A stretch of DNA of 33,749 bases. Source: a virus. The stretch spans positions 1-33,749 of the IMG/VR virus record IMGVR_UViG_3300030109_001830, one strand, 5' to 3'. Of the stretch, positions 1 through 17,146 are shown piece after piece (within the stretch, counting starts at the first letter, position 1; every line of letters begins with the position of its first letter). The notes beneath the pieces are model-generated. The model ran no database searches, had not been told where the DNA came from, and worked only from the letters and a program-made list of their open reading frames with translations. A program made the position numbers and the translations under genes.

Positions 1-173
1 AAATTATAGATGATGTAACACTACCGAATAAATATTTTGGCAATATGTTAACTTACGATGATGGCACTTGGGCTATACTTACTGAAGCAGTAGCAGAAGA
101 AAATGCTTCTAGGAAAGCATGGCGTGATAAAACTGGTGATACATCATTTTCAGATATAGAAGTAGAATTGTAA
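1..173 (+). CDS. C-terminal end of an unidentified protein (partial)
   Basis: An open frame enters from the left edge and stops at TAA 171-173, giving about 56 residues of a C-terminus (final residues SFSDIEVEL). It is rich in acidic and aromatic residues and shows no motif I recognise. A good ribosome-binding site for the next gene (AAGGAG, 173-178) follows immediately, which supports the stop being real. Its place just before small lysis-type genes fits the end of a fibre or other structural gene, but that is inference from position only. Confidence 0.6.
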   Translation, partial: IIDDVTLPNKYFGNMLTYDDGTWAILTEAVAEENASRKAWRDKTGDTSFSDIEVEL

Positions 174-4293: not shown

Positions 4294-5199
4294 ATGAATA
4301 CTAAAGAAAAACTACAAAATAGTTTCGCAAATACTACACAACTTGCTGGTACATACGGAATAGAGGTTGAGTTCGTCAATCGTTCAGGTTTATCACACCA
4401 CGATATTGCTGACATGATGTCTGACTACTTACATGAGATTGGTTCTGACGAAAAAATTACTGCTTGTTCTTATGGTCGTGCAGGTTCTTACAATAATAAT
4501 GATCAATGGGCGATTCACCCTGATTCATCTTGTGGGTTAGAAATGCCTACACCGATTCTTACTGGTGAACATGGTTTACAGAGATTAGAACTAATGATAG
4601 AAGTTCTAAAAATTGTTACTAACGATCAGGTTTCAGTTAACAGTCGATGTGGCTTACATGTTCACTTAGGTAAAGCACAGTTCAACAATATGAACCACCT
4701 TACTAAGTTCGTTGCAAACTACATGTACTACGAACCAGCAATCGACAAGTTAGTTCCTGAATCTAGGAGAGGTAACCAGAATCGTTCTTACGCTTCTAGT
4801 ATTCACAGTCCTGTTGATCAGAAAGCTATCAAGTCAGGTGACTGGGAAACAGGAGTGAATGGCATTGACAAGTTGAGATACGTGAAAAATGCTCAACACA
4901 TTACTAGGCGAGGTGCAAAAATTAATATCACAGGTTACAAACCTACGATAGAAGTTAGACACCACTCAGGTTCTCTAAATATTGACAAGATTTCTACATG
5001 GGTTAGATTCCTAGACTTCATGGTTAGATGGTCAGGTCTTAAGGAAACAAGAGTTCCAAACATTAACATCTACGATTTCACAGATGACAGAGATGCTTAC
5101 ACTCATAAAGTTTGGTTGCAGTTACTTTCTAAAATGAATGTGACAGGTCAGCAAGAGTTGGCTAATGAATTAAAAAAACGAGCTAGACAGTTGTCATAA
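4294..5199 (+). CDS. Amidoligase (COOH-NH2 ligase, Amidoligase_2 family)
   Basis: A 301-residue ATP-dependent ligase of the glutamine-synthetase-like fold, predicted to join a carboxylate to an amine to form an amide. Conserved blocks are visible in order: YGIEVEF (21-27; acidic metal/ATP ligands E24 and E26), W72 with D77 and E83 (WAIHPDSSCGLE), CGLHVH (119-124), an Arg-rich PESRRGNQNR loop (155-164), and a TIEVRHHSGSLN block (218-229). All key positions seem present, so the enzyme is probably active. GGAGG at 4283-4287 precedes the ATG. It is the first gene after promoter P1 and lies 12 bases ahead of a gamma-glutamylcyclotransferase, a pairing described by comparative genomics of this family for peptide or metabolite modification. 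The substrate cannot be read from sequence. Confidence 0.85.
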   Translation: MNTKEKLQNSFANTTQLAGTYGIEVEFVNRSGLSHHDIADMMSDYLHEIGSDEKITACSYGRAGSYNNNDQWAIHPDSSCGLEMPTPILTGEHGLQRLELMIEVLKIVTNDQVSVNSRCGLHVHLGKAQFNNMNHLTKFVANYMYYEPAIDKLVPESRRGNQNRSYASSIHSPVDQKAIKSGDWETGVNGIDKLRYVKNAQHITRRGAKINITGYKPTIEVRHHSGSLNIDKISTWVRFLDFMVRWSGLKETRVPNINIYDFTDDRDAYTHKVWLQLLSKMNVTGQQELANELKKRARQLS

Positions 5200-5211
5200 G
5201 GGAGGTTCATA

Positions 5212-5883
5212 ATGACTGAAGAAAAAAACATAGGAAAAAACTTATACAAGAGTTACACATACCAACATGACTGGAATTCTAAATGGGAGTTCCAGTCACT
5301 AAAAAAAGCAGATGATAAGTTTCACACTACAGAATACTATCTAGCTTATGGTTCTAACCTTAACTTAGGACAATTAAAACACAGATGCCCTAATGCTAAG
5401 CATGTCGGTAATGTTACAGTTGACGACTGGCAATTAGTGTTCAGAGGTGTTGCAGATATTGAGCCAGCAGTTGGCAAAAAATTAGTTGCAGGTATATTCA
5501 AAATATCTAAGCAAGATGAGGTTGCACTTGACCGATACGAGGGCTACCCAAATCTATACTACAAAGATTTTATGGATATGCAACTTGATGGTCAGCCGAT
5601 CAAAGTTATGTACTACAAAATGCACAAGTCAGGTATCGCTAGACCTAGCGACTACTACTACAAAACTATACTGCAAGGTTTCATGGACTGTGGTCTTGAT
5701 ATTTCTGTACTAGCCGAAGCATACAATCACACTTTGGCTAATATTACTACAGACCCCTCAGGACATCACTTTCCTAAAAGAAAGGGTAAAGTTACCAAAA
5801 AGAATAAAAACGCTTCCAGAGGTATCATTAAACGCTTCAGGGATCAGTTAAATAAAAAACACAATACACACAAAGGAGGATAG
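5212..5883 (+). CDS. Gamma-glutamylcyclotransferase / AIG2-like protein
   Basis: A 223-residue protein whose core (about residues 41-165) is a GGCT/AIG2 fold. YLAYGSN at 43-49 is the diagnostic substrate loop, RCPNA follows at 58-62, and FRGVADIEPAVG (77-88) leads to LDRYEGYP (106-113), where E110 matches the family's catalytic glutamate. These enzymes release a gamma-glutamyl group as 5-oxoproline. The family domain is usually about 110-150 residues; here it has a 40-residue N-terminal extension and a very basic C-terminal tail (KRKGKVTKKNK and onward), which could bind nucleic acid. GGGAGG at 5200-5205 precedes the ATG. It probably edits or reverses the product of the neighbouring amidoligase (inference from pairing). 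Confidence 0.85.
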   Translation: MTEEKNIGKNLYKSYTYQHDWNSKWEFQSLKKADDKFHTTEYYLAYGSNLNLGQLKHRCPNAKHVGNVTVDDWQLVFRGVADIEPAVGKKLVAGIFKISKQDEVALDRYEGYPNLYYKDFMDMQLDGQPIKVMYYKMHKSGIARPSDYYYKTILQGFMDCGLDISVLAEAYNHTLANITTDPSGHHFPKRKGKVTKKNKNASRGIIKRFRDQLNKKHNTHKGG

Positions 5884-6154: not shown

Positions 6155-6189
6155 TATATTGTTCAAAACAATTAGTGAAAGGTTACAAA

Positions 6190-6618
6190 ATGCAGACATT
6201 CTTACCATATCCAGACATACTACAGAGCGTACAATGTCTTGATTACAAACGACTAGGTAAACAGAGGGTTGAAGCCATGCAGACTTACAACCAAATTACC
6301 ACAGGCAGAGGTGGTTATCCACATCACCCTGTCAATAATATGTGGCGTGAATATCCTAGTGCGTTAGCATACTATCACAACGCTTGTATCATGGAGTGGT
6401 GTGCTAGAGGTTACAAAAATACTATGCAATATTTACCGATAGATGATCTAGTTATGCCCTACTGGTTAGGTAATGACAAGTTACATCTATCACATAAATC
6501 TAACCTTATGAGGAAAGATCCCGAGTACTATGGTCAGTTTGACTGGCAAGTTCCTGACAATCTACCTTATATATGGATTAATAGAGGAGGAGGTGCAGAA
6601 CTATTAAAGACTACCTAA
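6190..6618 (+). CDS. Pyrimidine-dimer DNA glycosylase-like protein (Pyr_excise family)
   Basis: A 142-residue protein resembling the phage family annotated as pyrimidine dimer DNA glycosylase / endonuclease V. Recognisable blocks are MQTFLPYPD at the N-terminus, CLDYKRLGKQRVEAMQ (16-31), a HHPVNNMW block, CARGYKNT and a RKDPEYYG-type block near the end. ATG 6190 is chosen over GTG 6175 because GAAAGG (6177-6182) sits at correct spacing for it. In the T4 enzyme the N-terminal threonine amine is the nucleophile; here residue 2 is glutamine, so base-excision activity of the T4 type is doubtful. It may instead act on another DNA lesion or modified base. First gene after promoter P2. Confidence 0.6.
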   Translation: MQTFLPYPDILQSVQCLDYKRLGKQRVEAMQTYNQITTGRGGYPHHPVNNMWREYPSALAYYHNACIMEWCARGYKNTMQYLPIDDLVMPYWLGNDKLHLSHKSNLMRKDPEYYGQFDWQVPDNLPYIWINRGGGAELLKTT

Positions 6619-8244: not shown

Positions 8245-8949
8245 ATGACTACAGAAAAATTAACTAAAATGAAACAGATGATGGCTAACAATCCACCACC
8301 AGAACCATTCTACTTAGAGGTAGAACAAAAAAGTGATGATGGCACTATTGTTTACAAACCTTTGATGGTTAGATTTGCATTTGAAAGTAAATTTGACGAT
8401 ATCAAGTGGACTCTGTATGGCGACTTTGACGAACAGGGTAACAGCAATAGATACTGGAAATTTGATGGTGTCAGTGGTGCTGAAAGAATTAAACAATGGG
8501 CAGAAGCAGAAGTACAATTAATGGAACAGACTGTCAAAGGCAAAACTTACTATGAGTGTATAAGTATCAAATGGGAAGATGACGAAGAAGTTGACAATGC
8601 TGTTGTAGGTATCGCTAAAAAAGTTGGTCAAGAAGTTGCACAGGAATACATTGACGAGCAAGAAGAAAAGAAAGCTACTGTCAAACCTGCTGGTGGAATT
8701 GGAAAAGATGATCAGGTTCCTGCTGTTTGGATGTTACCTAGAGAGTATCACGAACAAGCTAATGAGAAACAAAGGAAAAGTATAGAAATGCAAGTTGCTG
8801 TCAAAGCTTACACAGAGTTTTGCAGTACAGATTATGCAAGTGAAGAAGATAGAACTATACTAAAGAACATCTTAGAAAAAATGATAGGAAGTGAATTATG
8901 GCAACTGCCACAAGAAGATTCGGACGAGACGAAGAACGAAACAAAGTAA
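8245..8949 (+). CDS. Hypothetical protein after DUF932, possible nucleic-acid-binding
   Basis: A 234-residue acidic protein. Residues about 20-110 form a beta-rich domain with several Trp and Tyr residues; an acidic linker (about 111-150) and a helical C-terminal part (170-220) follow, ending in an acidic tail (EDSDETKNETK). The plan of a beta-barrel with an acidic C-terminus is reminiscent of phage single-strand-binding proteins, and the neighbourhood of recombination-type genes would fit, but I see no diagnostic motif. AAGGAG at 8233-8238 precedes the ATG. Its last 52 bases overlap the next gene. Confidence 0.6.
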   Translation: MTTEKLTKMKQMMANNPPPEPFYLEVEQKSDDGTIVYKPLMVRFAFESKFDDIKWTLYGDFDEQGNSNRYWKFDGVSGAERIKQWAEAEVQLMEQTVKGKTYYECISIKWEDDEEVDNAVVGIAKKVGQEVAQEYIDEQEEKKATVKPAGGIGKDDQVPAVWMLPREYHEQANEKQRKSIEMQVAVKAYTEFCSTDYASEEDRTILKNILEKMIGSELWQLPQEDSDETKNETK

Positions 8950-9206
8950 TCGTTCAGCAGTTTCTTGACAATCCTAACACTACCTTACAGGAAGTTGCAG
9001 AGGAATACTTTATAAGTAGAGCTAGAGTAGGTCAAATACTTAAGACTTACTTTGGCTCTGACTGGCAAAAACCAAAAAAGAAGTATGTCTGTTCAGCATG
9101 TCAAATTACTTTTAATACATGGCAAAGTAATCCGACTGCAAAATATTGTAAGTCATGTTACGGAAAGCATTGGAAAGGCAAAGCAAGACCGAGTTATAAA
9201 AAATAA
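8898..9206 (+). CDS. HTH plus zinc-ribbon small regulator
   Basis: A 102-residue basic protein. Residues about 14-50 (IVQQFLDNPNTTLQEVAEEY, then ISRARVGQILKTYFG) look like a sigma-factor region-4-type helix-turn-helix. Residues about 60-92 hold a CSAC and CKSC pair with a 17-residue gap, a zinc ribbon. The tail is Lys/Arg-rich. The start at ATG 8898 has AGGAAG just upstream (8886-8891) and overlaps the previous gene by 52 bases. A DNA-binding transcription factor is likely. It could act on the repeated TTTACA promoters of this phage, but that is inference. Last gene before an extremely A-rich stretch. Confidence 0.7.
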   Translation: MATATRRFGRDEERNKVIVQQFLDNPNTTLQEVAEEYFISRARVGQILKTYFGSDWQKPKKKYVCSACQITFNTWQSNPTAKYCKSCYGKHWKGKARPSYKK

Positions 9207-9319
9207 AAAAACGAAAAAAAAGTTTTTCATACTTTACAAAAAAAAGAAAAAAAACAAAAATAAAAAAATATATATATAAATATATATATCAAAAAAAGTT
9301 CAAAACATAAGGAGATAAG
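9207..9319 (+). other. Extremely AT-rich intergenic stretch
   Basis: About 113 bases that are almost entirely A and T. They include A-runs, a weak AAAAAC/GTTTTT hairpin (9215-9235 region) that could terminate the upstream unit, an ATACTTTACAAAA sequence matching the phage -35 surroundings, and an alternating TA block at about 9269-9288. A GGAG ribosome-binding site follows at 9311-9314. No -10 box stands at the usual distance from the TTTACA. DNA this easy to melt, directly before a helicase-loader gene, could be part of a replication origin; I see no iterons to prove it. Confidence 0.5.
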
Positions 9320-10036
9320 ATGACAATGGTCAATCAAAGATATGACTGCACTATCTGTGAAGATTCAGGATATGTGCCAGTCAAAGAAGAACCTACAAGA
9401 TTACAAACTTGTATATGTGAGCAAAAGAAGTATCAAGAAAAACGATACAATCTAAATTTTATCAGTTCAAATATTACAGAACTAGATAAACAGAGATTTA
9501 CTCTTGATAACTTTGATCCTAGAAAACAACTTACCAAGAAAGGTATAGCAGATGCAAAAATGCTTATAAAACTTCTTGATAGTTGGCAGAAAAAAGATAT
9601 AAAAATACTGACAATTATCGGTGGTGTAGGTATAGGCAAAACTCATTTAAGTATTGCTACACTATTAAACCTGCTACATGAAGATAGATGTTATTATGCA
9701 CCAGCTTCTGAGGTATCAGTCAAGTCAAGAGATTTTGAGTATAACGAAGCTGAACGATATAGAAGAAAATTACAAGATGTTGACTGGCTAGTTCTTGATG
9801 ATGTAGGTGTTGAGCATGATCCTAGAGGTTACATGCAGACTTTTTATCATAGCGTTATTGACCACAGGTATAGTCAGCACAAACAAACTTTGATCACTAC
9901 TAATTTAAGTATCAATGGCAAGAAAAAAGATAGTCTACTTAAAAGACTAGGAGAGCGTATTGTATCAAGACTAAACCACAAGGGAGTAAGTCTATGCTAC
10001 GAAGCAGAGGGTCAAGATATAAGGAAAGCTAAATGA
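9320..10036 (+). CDS. DnaC/IstB-like AAA+ helicase loader
   Basis: A 238-residue ATPase that would load the replicative helicase onto phage DNA. The N-terminus carries a small zinc-binding-type motif (C10, C13, C31, C33). The AAA+ core shows Walker A GGVGIGKT (101-108), Walker B WLVLDD (156-161), sensor-1 LITTN (191-195) and an arginine-finger-type RIVSRL segment near 214. ATG 9320 or 9326 can serve; GGAG at 9311-9314 fits both. No phage helicase, primase or polymerase lies in the window, so it either recruits the host helicase or partners with genes outside the window. Confidence 0.85.
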   Translation: MTMVNQRYDCTICEDSGYVPVKEEPTRLQTCICEQKKYQEKRYNLNFISSNITELDKQRFTLDNFDPRKQLTKKGIADAKMLIKLLDSWQKKDIKILTIIGGVGIGKTHLSIATLLNLLHEDRCYYAPASEVSVKSRDFEYNEAERYRRKLQDVDWLVLDDVGVEHDPRGYMQTFYHSVIDHRYSQHKQTLITTNLSINGKKKDSLLKRLGERIVSRLNHKGVSLCYEAEGQDIRKAK

Positions 10037-10791: not shown

Positions 10792-11676
10792 ATGGTGAGG
10801 AATGTTTCTACTTCCACGCAAATCCGAAATGGAGTTAACACTCCAGAGGTCAATGGCGTAATTCACACAAAGGAAACGATTGTGAATCCCATTTATGCTA
10901 GAGCAGTAAGTCCACGACATGTTACTGCGATAGTAAACAACTTTGATCCACGCAAGATAGGTACTATCGTTGTATGCGATATCGGTGATGACAAATACGA
11001 AATCATTGATGGTCAGCACAGGGTTGAAGCTTGTAAACGTCTAAAACATGAATGGATAGAAGTTCATGTATTAGAGAATATGTCCTTAGAGGAAAGAGCA
11101 GAATTTTATCACTCTTTCAATACTTTGAGGAAGCCACTATCTAGTATCGAGAAGTTTAAAGCTAGACTGATTGAGGGTGATGGCGAAAGTGTAGCGATAC
11201 ACGAAATCTGTAAGAGAGTTGGTGTTCAAGTTATGGGCATAGATACAGGAATCAAACAGACTGTATTCCCTATAACAAGAAGCATTGACAAGCTTATAGG
11301 AATTTTTAGTATGGGATTGTTGCACAGGACAGTCAGCATATTATACAACGCTTATGACAATGAACCACAAGATTGGTCAAAAGAAGCATTTGGCAACTAC
11401 TTGCTAGATAACATAAGCAAAGTTCTGTATTCATACAGGAACGAGATAGATGATGACAGGTTGTGTCAAACTATCGCAAAAGCAAAGTCAAGCTACTGGA
11501 ACAGTAAACCTGATAGCACAGACTTGCAAATGAAAACTTATGGTGGTGCAACTAAAATTGTTGAAGCTTACAACAAAGGTTTATCAGAAGCTAAGAGATT
11601 AGACTTCTCTAAATTGTTTGCGAAAAAAGTTTCAGCACACATCATGAGGAAATCAGCAGGAATAAACAAAGGTTAA
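10792..11676 (+). CDS. ParB-like nuclease-domain protein
   Basis: A 294-residue protein with a ParB/sulfiredoxin-fold N-terminal domain. The diagnostic block is IIDGQHRVEA (71-80), preceded by strands including GTIVVCDIGDDKYE and followed by a ...EWIEVHVLENMSLEERAEFYHSFN-type segment (split around residue 100). Residues 110-290 are helical and basic, of unknown role. Phage ParB-like proteins include nucleases, CTPases and DNA-binding regulators, and the exact activity cannot be told here. It is the first gene after promoter P3 (AAGGAGG at 10780-10786, ATG 10792). Hairpins flank it on both sides, and a second ParB-like gene starts 460 bases downstream of its end. Confidence 0.75.
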   Translation: MVRNVSTSTQIRNGVNTPEVNGVIHTKETIVNPIYARAVSPRHVTAIVNNFDPRKIGTIVVCDIGDDKYEIIDGQHRVEACKRLKHEWIEVHVLENMSLEERAEFYHSFNTLRKPLSSIEKFKARLIEGDGESVAIHEICKRVGVQVMGIDTGIKQTVFPITRSIDKLIGIFSMGLLHRTVSILYNAYDNEPQDWSKEAFGNYLLDNISKVLYSYRNEIDDDRLCQTIAKAKSSYWNSKPDSTDLQMKTYGGATKIVEAYNKGLSEAKRLDFSKLFAKKVSAHIMRKSAGINKG

Positions 11677-12135: not shown

Positions 12136-12840
12136 ATGGAACTAAAAAATCGTATCAAAGAACACATCACAGTAAAGAAATCAGAGATAAGACCTAATCC
12201 TAACAACTGGCGATTACACCCAACAGAACAAATAGAGGGATTGACTACTGTACTAAAAGACATTGGTTTCGTAGATGAATTGTTAGTTATAGAAGATCCA
12301 GAAAAGAAAGCTACATATATGCTAATTGATGGTGAAGCCAGATGGTCAGTTCACGAAGCTGATGATATTCTGCCATGTGCTGTGCTAGATTTGACAGAAG
12401 AAGAAGCTAAGATTGTACTTACTACTTTTGATCCTATATCTAGTTTCGCAGGTACAGACCCTAGAAAACTAGAAAGCTTGATGAAGAATACAGATATGCA
12501 AAAACTTGAGGAAGATGTATCTGATGAAATGAAAACTCTCATGGCAGATATTGATGAGAAATTTGCAACAGGATACAACGAACTGCCACCACAAGAAACT
12601 GACGCATACTTCGTAGAAAATGAAAGAGAAGCGTTACCACCAAGCGAATATATGAAAAATAAAGAAGCAGGTACAATACCAGAATCTGCTCAAAGCATAC
12701 AAATAAAAGTTAGTCCTGAAGAATATGAAGCTTGTATGCAACGACTGAAAGAGTTGGCACAAGTATACAGCACGAATACTTTGAGCGATACATTTGTCAA
12801 ACTAATACAGGAGAGCAAAAACTATTATGATGGAGATTAG
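12136..12840 (+). CDS. ParB-like domain protein of the DNA-modification operon
   Basis: A 234-residue protein. The N-terminal 100 residues are the ParB-like domain often seen in phage DNA-modification loci: IRPNPNNWRLHP (18-29), a GFVDELLVIED strand (44-54), LIDGEAR (63-69) and a LDLTEEEAKIVLTTFDPIS segment after that. The C-terminal half is acidic and helical without a recognised domain; in related phage proteins a methyltransferase can follow this domain, but none is fused here. It overlaps the TET-like gene by 14 bases. Comparative genomics has linked ParB-type domains with phage base-hypermodification operons, so a role in targeting or regulating modification is plausible. No ribosome-binding site is visible before ATG 12136. 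Confidence 0.75.
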   Translation: MELKNRIKEHITVKKSEIRPNPNNWRLHPTEQIEGLTTVLKDIGFVDELLVIEDPEKKATYMLIDGEARWSVHEADDILPCAVLDLTEEEAKIVLTTFDPISSFAGTDPRKLESLMKNTDMQKLEEDVSDEMKTLMADIDEKFATGYNELPPQETDAYFVENEREALPPSEYMKNKEAGTIPESAQSIQIKVSPEEYEACMQRLKELAQVYSTNTLSDTFVKLIQESKNYYDGD

Positions 12841-13729
12841 ACTTAGAAGTAAAATTTCTAAAGAAGAACTTGACGAAAAACTTGGCAGGATAATAACAGA
12901 AAAAGATGTTAATGTAGTCCTCACTAATCCTTGCAAGGTGTTGAAGCCGAATGGTGACCCTTTACTTATATATTTACCCAAAGCTATACCAGAAGATGTT
13001 GCTGAAAGGTCTTATGAGATATTGCACACAATACAAAGTGTCAGTGACAATAGAGGTATGGCAAGTGGCTCTAAAAGAGTTAAGCGTGGCAAGACATCAA
13101 GAGCCAACAATATAAAGAGTAGCGTAATAGGTCATTTTGATCCTTATAAAAACTGGCACCCATTCTGCAGAACGACAGCATGGACTGGTGCACACGCAGA
13201 AGAATTTAAAGAACTGATCCCAATGTTTCAAGCATGTGCTGATAATTTTGAGAAGCACGTTCCTAATAGATATGCCATACAAAAACGCAGATGTGAATCT
13301 ACTAAGCAGGAATGGGTTATAGGTAAGACACCATTTACAACGATTACTGTAAATAATACTTATCCTACTGGCGTACACAAAGACAAAGGTGATCTTGAAT
13401 CAGGATTCAGTAACTTGGCATGCCTAAGACGTGGCGATTATGATGGTGGCATATTAACCTTCCCAGAATTTAGAGTAGGCGTTGACATGCAAGATAGGGA
13501 TTTAATACTCATGGACGCACATGAATGGCATGGAAATACAGAGCTTGATTTAAAATCTGCTGACGCTGAAAGAATATCTCTTGTTTTATATTACAGGACA
13601 AACATGCTTCAATGTGGCACAGCTGAAGAAGAAATAGAGAAAGCAAAAAAACAGATACAATGGTATACAGAGGAAGAACTAGAAGCTCATGATTTAAAGG
13701 AGTCAGTAACTTTAGCAAAGGACAGGTAG
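12827..13729 (+). CDS. TET/JBP-family 2-oxoglutarate/Fe(II) dioxygenase
   Basis: A 300-residue DNA-base oxygenase. In characterised phage relatives the enzyme oxidises 5-methylcytosine in DNA to 5-hydroxymethylcytosine; JBP relatives oxidise thymine. The iron-binding triad is visible as H184 and D186 in TGVHKDKGD, and H235 in DAHEWHGN (230-237). R249 in AERISLVLYYR is the 2-oxoglutarate-binding arginine, and GGILTFPEFRVGVD (207-220) is the family's strand block. The upstream domain carries the typical CRTTAW (114-119) and VPNRYAIQ (145-152) blocks. All catalytic residues are present. GGAG at 12811-12814 precedes the ATG. Two glycosyltransferases follow, as expected for a glycosylated hydroxymethyl base. 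No DNA cytosine methyltransferase is visible in the window. Confidence 0.88.
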   Translation: MMEIRLRSKISKEELDEKLGRIITEKDVNVVLTNPCKVLKPNGDPLLIYLPKAIPEDVAERSYEILHTIQSVSDNRGMASGSKRVKRGKTSRANNIKSSVIGHFDPYKNWHPFCRTTAWTGAHAEEFKELIPMFQACADNFEKHVPNRYAIQKRRCESTKQEWVIGKTPFTTITVNNTYPTGVHKDKGDLESGFSNLACLRRGDYDGGILTFPEFRVGVDMQDRDLILMDAHEWHGNTELDLKSADAERISLVLYYRTNMLQCGTAEEEIEKAKKQIQWYTEEELEAHDLKESVTLAKDR

Positions 13730-13758
13730 TTTATCACCCTTGACATGCTAAAACGCTG

Positions 13759-13780
13759 TCTGAGGGCTTCTGAGGGCTTC
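13759..13780 (+). repeat. Short tandem repeat in the gap after the dioxygenase gene
   Basis: TCTGAGGGCT occurs twice in tandem (13759-13768 and 13769-13778) followed by another TC, within the 85-base gap between the dioxygenase and the first glycosyltransferase. It may be a binding site or a replication-slippage product. The rest of the gap is AT-rich with no clear ribosome-binding site for ATG 13815. Confidence 0.6.
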
Positions 13781-13814
13781 ATAAAATAAGAAATTTAAGT
13801 AGAAATAAACAAAT

Positions 13815-14525
13815 ATGACTGATTTCAAACAAAATGACAAATTTCGTGACAGTTATAATATTTATACTATTTCACTAAATACTGACGTTGGTAACCACAG
13901 AAAGTCGTTGCTAAATTTTGACACCGAAATATTTGAAGCATGTACTTATGAAAGTAGTCCGCAATTTATAAAAGACAAATTTAAGTTTTTCAAGATAGGC
14001 AAGAAAACAGCAAGACCAATATCAGGACAGCATGGTACTATCGGGTGCTTCAGTAGTCATTACCTTGTTATAAAAAAAATAGCAGATGAACAAATTGATA
14101 ATGCAATAATTACAGAAGATGACGCTATGCAAAAAGCAAACTTGCCTGATCCTAGCATATTTACAGAGCCGACATTGTTAGGTGCTTTTTTACATCACCC
14201 TACAAGTTTCAGAGATACTGAACGCTGGGCTAAAGAAGTAATGCCTGAAATTATATTTAGTTGGTCTACTAATGTGATAGAGATAGATTATAGTATATTT
14301 AGATGGCGTGGCTGCCATAGTTATTTATTTCCTAAGTGGCAACAAGCTAAAAAAATAGTAGAGCATATAGAAAACGCATCATTTTTGAAAGCAATAGACA
14401 CAGAACTACCGAATAATAAACTTCTTAACCACTTACACTACCCTGCCATTTTTGAGCAACGCAGAGATTTAAAAAGTCAGATTGAAACTAATTTATATGC
14501 AGGTGAAAGAAAGAGTATGATATGA
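13815..14525 (+). CDS. GT25-like glycosyltransferase of the modification operon
   Basis: A 236-residue protein resembling LPS glycosyltransferase family 25. An N-terminal YTISLNTD strand is followed by ISGQHGTIGCFSSH (69-82), matching the GxxGCxxSH signature, and by AIITEDDAM (97-105), whose EDD is the family's metal/nucleotide-sugar-binding acidic motif. It would transfer a sugar from a nucleotide-sugar donor. Because it is between the dioxygenase and another glycosyltransferase, the likely acceptor is the hydroxymethylated DNA base or a sugar already on it, rather than lipopolysaccharide (inference). ATG 13815 lacks a clear Shine-Dalgarno site. The stop overlaps the next start (ATGA at 14522). 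Confidence 0.72.
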   Translation: MTDFKQNDKFRDSYNIYTISLNTDVGNHRKSLLNFDTEIFEACTYESSPQFIKDKFKFFKIGKKTARPISGQHGTIGCFSSHYLVIKKIADEQIDNAIITEDDAMQKANLPDPSIFTEPTLLGAFLHHPTSFRDTERWAKEVMPEIIFSWSTNVIEIDYSIFRWRGCHSYLFPKWQQAKKIVEHIENASFLKAIDTELPNNKLLNHLHYPAIFEQRRDLKSQIETNLYAGERKSMI

Positions 14526-15322
14526 AAGCACAGATAGTGATACCTAGTTATAAAAGAGTAGACATCTTAAAAAATAAAACTTTAGCGATGCTGCGTAGTT
14601 ATAATGTGCCAGACAATAAATGCAAGATATATGTAGCTACTGACGAACAATTAACTGAATACCAAAATGAAATCAAAGGCGAATATGATTGGCAGGTGAT
14701 AGGGCGTCCAGGTATCGGTTACCTTAGAAACTACATATCGCAAAATAATAAAGCAAACGAATGGTTGTTATGGATTGATGATGACATAGAAGAAGTGCTG
14801 TACCTACAAGATAACAAACTAGAAAGAATACCTGACCTAAATGTTATGATAGACCAGATGATTGTTGATGCTGACGCACTAGGTAGTGGGCAAGTTGGCA
14901 TATACCCTGTCAATAATCATTTCTTTATGAAGCCAAAAATAACAATAGATCTTAGATTTATTATTGGTTGCTTCTGTCTTACTAAGAATGATCCAGAATG
15001 TGAGGAACGTACATTTGACTTAGTAGAAGATTTTGAAAGAACTTTAAAGTATTATTTAAAATACAATAAAAGTATGAGGTATGAAAACATTACAGTAAAG
15101 ACAAACTATATGCTACCAGTTGGTGGCATACATGAAACTGGTATAAGAACTAACTCATTAAAAGAAGCAGAGGTTGACAGGTTTATTGAATTATTCAGTG
15201 CATGGTGTACAAAAAAATATAAAGCAAACAATCAGGTAGATATAAAATTTTTAACAAAACCACAAGAAGTAGTATTCAACTATAAAGAATGGCTCGACCA
15301 ATTAAATATACAAAAGCATTAG
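14522..15322 (+). CDS. GT-A glycosyltransferase, TET-associated type
   Basis: A 266-residue GT-A-fold glycosyltransferase. The N-terminus AQIVIPSYKR (3-12) is the nucleotide-binding strand, GRPGIGYLRN (61-70) follows, and WLLWIDDDIEEV (81-92) carries the DDD at 86-88 that would bind the metal and sugar-nucleotide. Downstream are RFIIGCFCL and a VEDFERTL segment. The arrangement matches the TET-associated glycosyltransferases described next to phage TET/JBP enzymes, which act on 5-hydroxymethyl bases in DNA. It starts in an ATGA overlap with the GT25-like gene. Its C-terminus overlaps the terminase small subunit by 34 bases, physically linking modification to packaging. Confidence 0.78.
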   Translation: MKAQIVIPSYKRVDILKNKTLAMLRSYNVPDNKCKIYVATDEQLTEYQNEIKGEYDWQVIGRPGIGYLRNYISQNNKANEWLLWIDDDIEEVLYLQDNKLERIPDLNVMIDQMIVDADALGSGQVGIYPVNNHFFMKPKITIDLRFIIGCFCLTKNDPECEERTFDLVEDFERTLKYYLKYNKSMRYENITVKTNYMLPVGGIHETGIRTNSLKEAEVDRFIELFSAWCTKKYKANNQVDIKFLTKPQEVVFNYKEWLDQLNIQKH

Positions 15323-15762
15323 CTGAAGAAATAGCACAAGAGATACGTCAGGGTGTTACACCTGAAGTAGCATGTCAAGTGCATGGATTAGGTATATCTA
15401 CATACTATGAATGGTGTGCGAAAGGTAGAGATGGTGTCAAACCATTTACAGAGTTTCTGGAGGTGATTACGCACGCAAGAGTTATGCTAAGAAGATTAGT
15501 TGAACGCAGAATTTTATTATCAGATGCTAAGTTCTTTGCAAGTCGTAGTCCACTAATGCGTGAGAAAGATGGCGTTGATGGTTGGCATGGTTTTGAAAAG
15601 AATGATGTCAATGTGCAAGTTGTTACAGTAAGTAGCATAGTAGATAGCGTACTAGAAGAAGATGATGACTTTGACATACTAAGTAAACCACAGACTACAC
15701 ACAAGATTAAATACATTGGAGAAAATGGTTCTAAACCAAAAGCAAAAACAAAAGATAAGTAA
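15289..15762 (+). CDS. terS: Terminase small subunit
   Basis: A 157-residue protein. The N-terminal 60 residues form a helix-turn-helix of the small-terminase kind: a PIKYTKALAEEIAQEI segment, then GVTPEVACQVHGLGISTYYEWC. A helical oligomerisation region (about 60-100) and an acidic stretch (EEDDDFD, near 130) precede a basic tail. It would recognise the packaging site and recruit the large subunit. ATG 15289 lies inside the glycosyltransferase gene, and its end overlaps the large-subunit gene by 38 bases. The identity rests on this fold plus the adjacent large subunit. Confidence 0.8.
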   Translation: MARPIKYTKALAEEIAQEIRQGVTPEVACQVHGLGISTYYEWCAKGRDGVKPFTEFLEVITHARVMLRRLVERRILLSDAKFFASRSPLMREKDGVDGWHGFEKNDVNVQVVTVSSIVDSVLEEDDDFDILSKPQTTHKIKYIGENGSKPKAKTKDK

Positions 15763-17146
15763 TTGGCTTGACCCTGTATACTTCGTACAGAATGTTATAG
15801 GTGAAAACCTGTATAGAAAACAGGGCGATATATTGCATGCTATACAAGAGAATCCATTTGTCAGCGTAGTAGGTGCTAATGGTACTGGCAAAGATTGGAC
15901 TACTGGTAGATTAATCTGTTGGTGGTTGGCTATGCAAGAGGAAGCCGTAGTAGTTGTTCTTGGACCATCATATAGGCAAGTGGCTGACATTGTGTGGAAA
16001 GAGGTTAGAGTGGCGTATACAGAAGCTCAAAAGAAAGGTAATCCTCTAGGTGGCAAGATAGGAAAAACTCCTCGCTGGGAAATTAGCGATAGACGATATG
16101 CTGTTGGCTTCAGCACAAGTGATGAGTTCAACATACAGGGTTATCACAGCAAAAGATTATTATTAGTAATCACAGAAGCACACGCAGTAGATGATGCTCA
16201 CATTGACGCAGGTATGCGTTTAAATCCTACAAGAGTAGTGCTAACTGGCAACCCATTCACAACTTCAGGTAAGTTTTACGAATCACATCATAGCGAAAGA
16301 GATTTATGGAAAACAATAAATCTATCTGCATTTGATACACCTAATGTCATAAACAAAAAAGAAGTAGTAAACGGATTAGTCACTTATGACCAGATAGAAA
16401 GGCGTAAAGCAGAGTTAGGTGAAGATCACCCTATGTATGTCGGTGGTATACTTGGCAAGTTTCCTACTAATTTAGGTAGCAATCTTATATCACTAGAATC
16501 AGCTCAAAAGGCATTAACAAGAAAGCTAGAACCAACTGGACCTACTACTATCGGTGTTGATGTTGCAAGAGAAGGTGAAGATAAGACTGTCGTTGTTAGG
16601 CGTGATGGTTCAGTAGCAAGAATATTATGGTCAGTACAAGGTCAGAATACTGATCAAGTGGCAGGCTGGGTAGCAGAATATATATCAACGCATAAACCAT
16701 TCGGCGATAGACAGGGTTATGTAGTAGTTGATACAGTAGGTGTAGGTGGTGGTGTATATGATAGGTTACTTGCAAATGATATACCAGATTGGGAACTGCA
16801 AGAGTTCAAAGGTGGTGGCAGACCTATTGATAACGAAAGGTATAAAGACAAAAATGCTGAGGGGTGGTATAGTATCAGAGAAGCATTGTTGGCAGAGGAT
16901 TTAAGCTTTGTCAATGGTTGCGATTGTAATGGTGAACAATTAGTTTGCCAAGATTATATTGATGACGAAGCTCTTCAACGCATGGTCGCTCAACTTTCAA
17001 GTCGTGGATTCACGATTGAGGGAGATAGAAAAATTAAACTTCAGAGTAAAGACGAACTGCGAAAGAAAGGCAAAAGAAGTCCTGACGAAGCCGACGCACT
17101 AGCCATGACCTACTCTGTAAAAGAAAATGTATTAGAGGTATGGTAA
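15725..17146 (+). CDS. terL: Terminase large subunit
   Basis: The DNA-packaging motor. I prefer ATG 15725 to the in-frame TTG 15716 (473 residues); a GGAG at 15718-15721 is close to it. The ATPase domain has GANGTGKD (50-57) as Walker A and LLLVITEAHA (145-154) as Walker B. In both places a usual residue is replaced (GKD for GKT/S and TEA for DEA). The nuclease domain shows the expected acidic residues in IGVDVAREGED, VVVDTVGVGGG and PDEADALAM. The 3' end abuts the portal gene (TAA then ATG). Length and domain order are normal for the family. Confidence 0.9.
   Translation: MVLNQKQKQKISNWLDPVYFVQNVIGENLYRKQGDILHAIQENPFVSVVGANGTGKDWTTGRLICWWLAMQEEAVVVVLGPSYRQVADIVWKEVRVAYTEAQKKGNPLGGKIGKTPRWEISDRRYAVGFSTSDEFNIQGYHSKRLLLVITEAHAVDDAHIDAGMRLNPTRVVLTGNPFTTSGKFYESHHSERDLWKTINLSAFDTPNVINKKEVVNGLVTYDQIERRKAELGEDHPMYVGGILGKFPTNLGSNLISLESAQKALTRKLEPTGPTTIGVDVAREGEDKTVVVRRDGSVARILWSVQGQNTDQVAGWVAEYISTHKPFGDRQGYVVVDTVGVGGGVYDRLLANDIPDWELQEFKGGGRPIDNERYKDKNAEGWYSIREALLAEDLSFVNGCDCNGEQLVCQDYIDDEALQRMVAQLSSRGFTIEGDRKIKLQSKDELRKKGKRSPDEADALAMTYSVKENVLEVW

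Follow-up and report, generated by a model that had tools for sequence, protein, structure and literature searches.

A phage TET/JBP operon with two glycosyltransferases and a predicted thymine substrate for DNA hypermodification

The window analysed here, a stretch of 33,749 nucleotides of viral DNA (positions 1-33,749 of IMG/VR record IMGVR_UViG_3300030109_001830), carries four genes in one direction which, judged by their families and motifs, are a real and intact DNA-hypermodification set. They encode, in order on the plus strand: (i) a ParB_N-like protein of 234 amino acids (12136..12840; PF02195, phrog_620 and phrog_498); (ii) a 2-oxoglutarate (2OG)/Fe(II) dioxygenase of the TET/JBP type of 300 amino acids (12827..13729; PF12851), in which H184, D186, H235 and R249 are intact; (iii) a GT25-family glycosyltransferase of 236 amino acids (13815..14525; PF01755) with the EDD motif E101-D102-D103; and (iv) a TET-associated glycosyltransferase (TAGT) of 266 amino acids (14522..15322; PF20691), of the GT-A fold and with the motif D86-D87-D88. 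The ParB and TET genes overlap by 14 nt and the GT25 and TAGT genes by 4 nt, the sole gap in the run being the 85 nt between TET and GT25 (13730..13814). TAGT overlaps by 34 nt the gene of the small terminase subunit, TerS (15289-15762), directly after it in operon order, which is followed by that of the large subunit, TerL (15716-17146). The open reading frames lie exactly where a first-pass annotation, made from the sequence alone, had placed them, and its family calls (ParB_N-like, Tet_JBP, GT25 and TAGT) hold up in Pfam and PHROG matches far beyond chance. Its overall proposal of an operon that oxidises and then glycosylates DNA, equipped with two glycosyltransferases and adjoining the terminase, is likewise borne out by the families, the intact motifs and the TerS and TerL genes downstream.

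The full record (G000; 35,040 bp, classed as linear) extends slightly beyond the window, and a run of ten N is found just past the window end. The two ends of G000 (window 1-124 and G000 34917-35040) share a 124-bp overlap in which 120 positions are identical, the first 72 without a mismatch, so that the contig is probably a complete genome, about 34.9 kb long once closed and either circularly permuted or circular; gene absences in G000 are, thus, meaningful.

The dioxygenase matches the Tet_JBP family with E=1.9e-19. All 78 non-redundant relatives share the residues of its iron triad, H184, D186 and H235, and the 2OG-binding R249 is present in each of the 76 that cover it, in agreement with the four residues singled out by the first-pass annotation. 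When a profile of 55 TETs was searched against the PDB, it landed inside the TET/JBP family, on human TET2 (E=9e-9), with a weak match to Naegleria NgTet1. In the profile alignment R249 corresponds to TET2 R1896, Y255 to Y1902, R257 to H1904 (H297 of NgTet1) and D189 to TET2 N1387 and NgTet1 D234; the histidine at the R257-equivalent position contacts the base, and NgTet1 D234 contacts the cytosine amino group. The predicted function is the oxidation of a 5-methylpyrimidine in DNA. Several TET/JBP homologues (Indlovu gp2, HTVC112P gp18 and those of Cr30, DLP6 and S-CBWM1) are publicly labelled 'queuine tRNA-ribosyltransferase', 'SNF2 DNA repair protein' or 'DnaJ chaperone', the first of these labels being also attached to phrog_6059.

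Scans of viral contigs recovered more than 400 stretches with relatives of the window TET, plus a second (sister) class to which the TET of Methylophilales phage Melnitz is related. Once TETs sharing 85% identity or more had been removed, partner genes were counted within 6 kb of the TET by means of profiles built in this analysis; as Fisher tests on such counts ignore relatedness, the minimum number of independent changes was instead taken from a TET tree, which was built by a quick method and has some long branches. Among the 58 representatives of the window clade, ParB is present in 53, a PF18751-like kinase in 36, the amino acid:DNA transferase ADDT in 35, TAGT in 19, GT25 in 2 and a C5-methyltransferase in none, and TAGT and ADDT/kinase never co-occur. 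The 14 representatives of the Melnitz class include 13 with a C5-methyltransferase, 6 with the kinase and 4 with TAGT, and none with ADDT or ParB. Over whole records, the C5-methyltransferase family PF00145 occurs in 43 of 44 Melnitz-class records and in 4 of 48 of the window clade, where the nearest copy lies about 10 kb from the TET. It was found neither in G000 nor in seven complete isolate genomes with related TETs (HTVC112P, P12024L, Cr30, DLP6, S-CBWM1, C48C1 and Indlovu).

Within the window clade, the TETs of ADDT-type and TAGT-type loci interleave on the tree, where well-supported branches force at least six changes of label, and their pocket residues are identical; both types would, therefore, probably share one substrate and feed interchangeable decorations. 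The closest relative of the window TET (about 60% identical) belongs to an ADDT-type locus, L001, with the composition ParB-TET-ADDT-phosphatase-like-kinase. Two further loci are of note: in an ADDT/kinase locus (L020) an aspartyl/asparaginyl beta-hydroxylase-like gene (8317-9423) adjoins the TET, and in Arthrobacter phage Bumble (L032) TET-like, TAGT and PIG-L genes are encoded after record position 38798, a region without annotated genes.

The identity of the shared substrate is suggested by the partner that marks the ADDT-type loci. Each of the four thymidine-hypermodified phages examined (phiW-14, ViI, M6 and YuA) carries ADDT (PF18724), and 14 control genomes gave no match to it. The same four phages all encode a divergent thymidylate-synthase homologue (PF00303), in line with the known dUMP hydroxymethylases of such phages, and none encodes Tet_JBP. 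The TET clade mirrors this pattern in reverse: Tet_JBP is present, ADDT is found in about half of the records, and PF00303 was not detected in any of 44 TET-clade records (G000 and 43 others). On the simplest reading, the TET seems to replace the nucleotide-level hydroxymethylase, supplying 5-hydroxymethyl-deoxyuridine (5hmdU) at the level of DNA, which makes thymine in DNA the most likely target of hydroxylation by the window-clade TET. In 2025 a ParB/TET/aGPT-PPlase2/kinase set was described in an annotation as a thymidine hypermodification system (PMC11955845), and a prediction of 2013, cited in PMC4111573, had already named 5-hydroxymethyluracil (5hmU) as the base on which TAGTs act when they are linked to JBP-like enzymes of phages. 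Two other candidate markers were discarded: the PF18751 kinase alone, which is absent from ViI, M6, YuA and phiW-14 and has a relative beside C5-methyltransferase-linked TETs, and D189, which is conserved in both TET classes.

The first-pass annotation had assumed 5-methylcytosine (5mC) as the substrate, and the corresponding alternative, in which the TET oxidises host-made 5mC to 5-hydroxymethylcytosine, which is then glycosylated by TAGT and GT25, has to be weighed against thymine. Several points speak for caution about thymine. ADDT was not found in G000, so that the assignment for this member is drawn from relatives; the kinase family also accompanies 6 of the 14 C5-methyltransferase-linked TETs, leaving ADDT as the only partner that points to thymine; D189, the equivalent of NgTet1 D234, is kept in both classes; and a host methyltransferase could supply 5mC. 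Position 257 does separate the classes, with Arg in 57 of 57 covered window-clade TETs and Asp in 12 of 12 covered TETs of the C5-methyltransferase class, but on the tree this split arose just once, and it is best regarded as a lead, short of proof. Furthermore, the phage TETs characterised so far act on 5mC (Burke 2021, as reported in PMC11404850), this activity having been demonstrated in 2021, by the accounts given in PMC11404850 and PMC12730594, for C5-methyltransferase-linked phage TETs, and the TAGT of T6 acts on glucosylated hydroxymethylcytosine (PMC13216743). Nevertheless, the 5mC assignment does not fit the gene content of the clade: no C5-methyltransferase was found in G000, within 6 kb of the TET in any of the 58 clade loci, or in the seven related isolate genomes, and the usual partner of the clade is ADDT. 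A route through host-made 5mC is, thus, unlikely.

How the hydroxymethyl group would be decorated depends on the two glycosyltransferases. The window TAGT narrowly exceeds the PF20691 cut-off (E=2.5e-6; 28.0 bits against 27.5) and matches phrog_842 with E=3e-11, and its D87 and D170 are invariant in 22 homologues. Its AlphaFold2 model is confident, with a predicted local distance difference test score (pLDDT) of 89.3. The top viral Foldseek matches of this model include several TAGT proteins, the TET-linked glycosyltransferase of S-CBWM1 and the beta-glucosyl-HMC-alpha-glucosyltransferase of Klebsiella phage PKO111 (E=1.6e-10; HMC, hydroxymethylcytosine), an enzyme of the T-even type, and those in the PDB are general GT-A enzymes. 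The GT25 protein matches PF01755 over residues 15-109 (E=9.6e-14; 52.1 bits against a cut-off of 24), and an AlphaFold2 model built from two sequences was poor (pLDDT 37.5).

No GT25 homologue was found in annotated phages, nor by a single-sequence scan of the viral contigs. A second occurrence (L068:863-1606) is 31% identical to the window protein (E=1e-14), itself matches PF01755 (E=2.8e-8), keeps the EDD motif and lies in a locus (L068/L069) with the order GT25-ParB-ParB-TAGT-TET. The gene is present in a third record, L189, as well, and a two-sequence GT25 profile run on the viral contigs returned the L068 lineage only. In two relatives (L071, 2953-3612; L078, 2918-3583) the slot before ParB-ParB-TAGT-TET that GT25 occupies in L068 holds a PF04488 (DXD) glycosyltransferase; the TETs of both fall in the same 85%-identity group as that of L068, which suggests that the second glycosyltransferase is exchanged fast among these relatives. 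Two further loci, L109 and L111, carry three TAGT-like genes. The pairing with GT25 had been put forward as unusual, and it is indeed rare (2 of 58 clade representatives), although a single other lineage has it as well.

A TAGT without any further transferase accompanies the TET in P12024L and most TAGT-type loci, so that TAGT is presumably able to act first, and a variable second transferase beside a fixed TET/TAGT core fits a sugar-on-sugar or alternative-sugar step. Decoration with two sugars or at two sites is, on this comparative evidence, plausible; the sugar-on-sugar or doubly decorated base that had been predicted gains support, short of proof, from the recurrence of GT25 in a second TET/TAGT operon. 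The order may also be the reverse, with GT25 acting first and being base-specific and TAGT adding a sugar to a sugar, or the two enzymes may compete for one hydroxyl group and yield a mixture. The precedent is T6, in which a TAGT, the beta-glucosyl-HMC-alpha-glucosyltransferase, adds the second glucose on the already glucosylated base (PMC13216743, PMC13390438), and the window TAGT model resembles an enzyme of this kind. However, TAGT must be able to act first in P12024L and the other loci where it alone follows the TET, and this variant of the main scheme is possible but less likely.

It might also be argued that the DNA is modified by TET and TAGT only, GT25 being a passenger whose substrate is a host surface glycan or something else. 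GT25 enzymes typically glycosylate lipopolysaccharide or protein, the gene is preceded by the 85-nt gap and is rare in the clade, and phages P12024L and Indlovu manage without it. On the other hand, GT25 lies inside the operon and overlaps TAGT, and it recurs by ParB, TAGT and TET in the other lineage, in a different order and in a slot held by another glycosyltransferase in near relatives, making a passenger role quite improbable.

The ParB-like leader falls below the PF02195 cut-off (E=0.0047; 17.4 bits against 26.3) and is matched more firmly by phrog_620 (E=7e-11) and phrog_498 (ParB-DNA methyltransferase; E=3e-11), with its homologue in Pelagibacter phage HTVC112P clearing the ParB_N cut-off at 40.5 bits. 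Its presence had been considered unusual, a view that did not survive the comparison: a ParB homologue lies near the TET in 53 of 58 window-clade representatives as opposed to 0 of 14 of the C5-methyltransferase-linked class, and Indlovu shows the order ParB-TET-TAGT-...-terminase. A ParB-like protein is, then, a constant companion of the TET in this clade, and its part may be to direct the complex to its target or to regulate it. In HTVC112P (L025) an FkbM-type methyltransferase gene (8497-9195) directly follows ParB-TET, where others have a glycosyltransferase or ADDT; O-methylation of the hydroxymethyl base or of a sugar is a possible role. A second ParB-superfamily gene lies upstream of the operon in the window (10792-11676; DUF6551, with weak DndB and GmrSD_N matches) and may have to do with modifying DNA or with recognising the modification.

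The gene families, the intact catalytic motifs, the clade-wide partner sets and, within the records searched, the lack of a C5-methyltransferase and of a dUMP-hydroxymethylase homologue are direct observations. From these we infer thymine as the base, the order and identities of the sugars, the role of ParB and protection as the purpose, in a scheme to which, taken as a whole, we assign a probability of roughly 60%. The TET/JBP enzyme would hydroxylate the thymine methyl group in newly made phage DNA, yielding 5hmdU much as JBP does in base J synthesis; TAGT would attach a first sugar to the hydroxymethyl group; GT25 would add a second sugar, or place a different sugar at some of the sites; the ParB-like protein may target or regulate the complex; and the DNA so modified would resist host nucleases.

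Elsewhere in the window, positions 4294-5883 encode an Amidoligase_2 protein (PF12224, E=1e-19) and, after it, a gamma-glutamyl cyclotransferase/AIG2-like protein (PF06094, E=3e-8), a candidate amide-bond-forming pair in what is a small phage genome, and positions 6175-6618 encode a pyrimidine dimer DNA glycosylase of the T4 endonuclease V type (PF03013, E=6e-22).

Base hydroxylation and sugar attachment are a known kind of phage protection against host defences, and 5mC is the substrate usually ascribed to phage TETs. As far as the literature searched shows, the clade-wide mirror-image test, the split at residue 257 and the recurrence of a second transferase, be it GT25 or another, are new. 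Tentatively, and with somewhat less than even odds, a large phage TET/JBP clade may consist of thymine hydroxylases that make 5hmdU directly in DNA, in place of the nucleotide-level hydroxymethylase of known thymidine-hypermodified phages, and feed interchangeable modules, which would transfer amino acids or contain between one and three glycosyltransferases; the window member would lead, via a DNA-acting GT25, to a base-J-like nucleotide carrying either a disaccharide or two sugars as alternatives. The split in partner genes and in residue 257 offers a simple rule, open to testing, for the base oxidised by a phage TET (C5-methyltransferase with D257 versus ADDT or TAGT with ParB and R257), for which the cultured phages HTVC112P and P12024L are places to check. 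A DNA-active GT25, if true, would add a further glycosyltransferase family acting on DNA, of use for 5hmU labelling.

Among known systems, genes 1-6 of Mycobacterium phage Indlovu (and of Acadian, Rich and relatives) share with the window the arrangement ParB, Tet_JBP-like, TAGT and, further on, terminase, in the same order and strand. Indlovu differs in having a PIG-L deacetylase and a PF18751 kinase, in having no GT25, and in its TET, which is 23% identical and has L/I at the R257 position. Rhodococcus phage Tonitrus (ParB, TET-like JBP, aGPT-PPlase2 and 5hmU kinase; PMC11955845) has the same first two genes, and the nearest relative of the window TET, L001, has a composition of this kind; its downstream module is an amino acid transferase/kinase one, in place of the two glycosyltransferases. 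The phiW-14/ViI/M6-type thymidine hypermodification pathways rely on ADDT and a PF00303 homologue, neither of which was found in G000. The C5-methyltransferase-linked phage TET systems (Burke 2021) likewise combine TET/JBP with glycosyltransferases in phage operons, whereas the window lacks the C5-methyltransferase and has a different base-contact residue and another partner set. The T6 pathway to gentiobiosyl-hydroxymethylcytosine also employs two glycosyltransferases, one of them a TAGT, and builds a disaccharide on a hydroxymethyl base, but in the T-even phages hydroxymethylcytosine is made as a nucleotide and a GT-B alpha-glucosyltransferase acts first, while in the window the TET would act on DNA and the partner is GT25. 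Finally, base J synthesis by JBP1/2 and the J glucosyltransferase resembles the scheme proposed here in that oxidation at the DNA level by a TET/JBP enzyme is followed by glycosylation; that system is eukaryotic, while the window encodes no J-binding domain, has two glycosyltransferases and is predicted to share thymine as the substrate.

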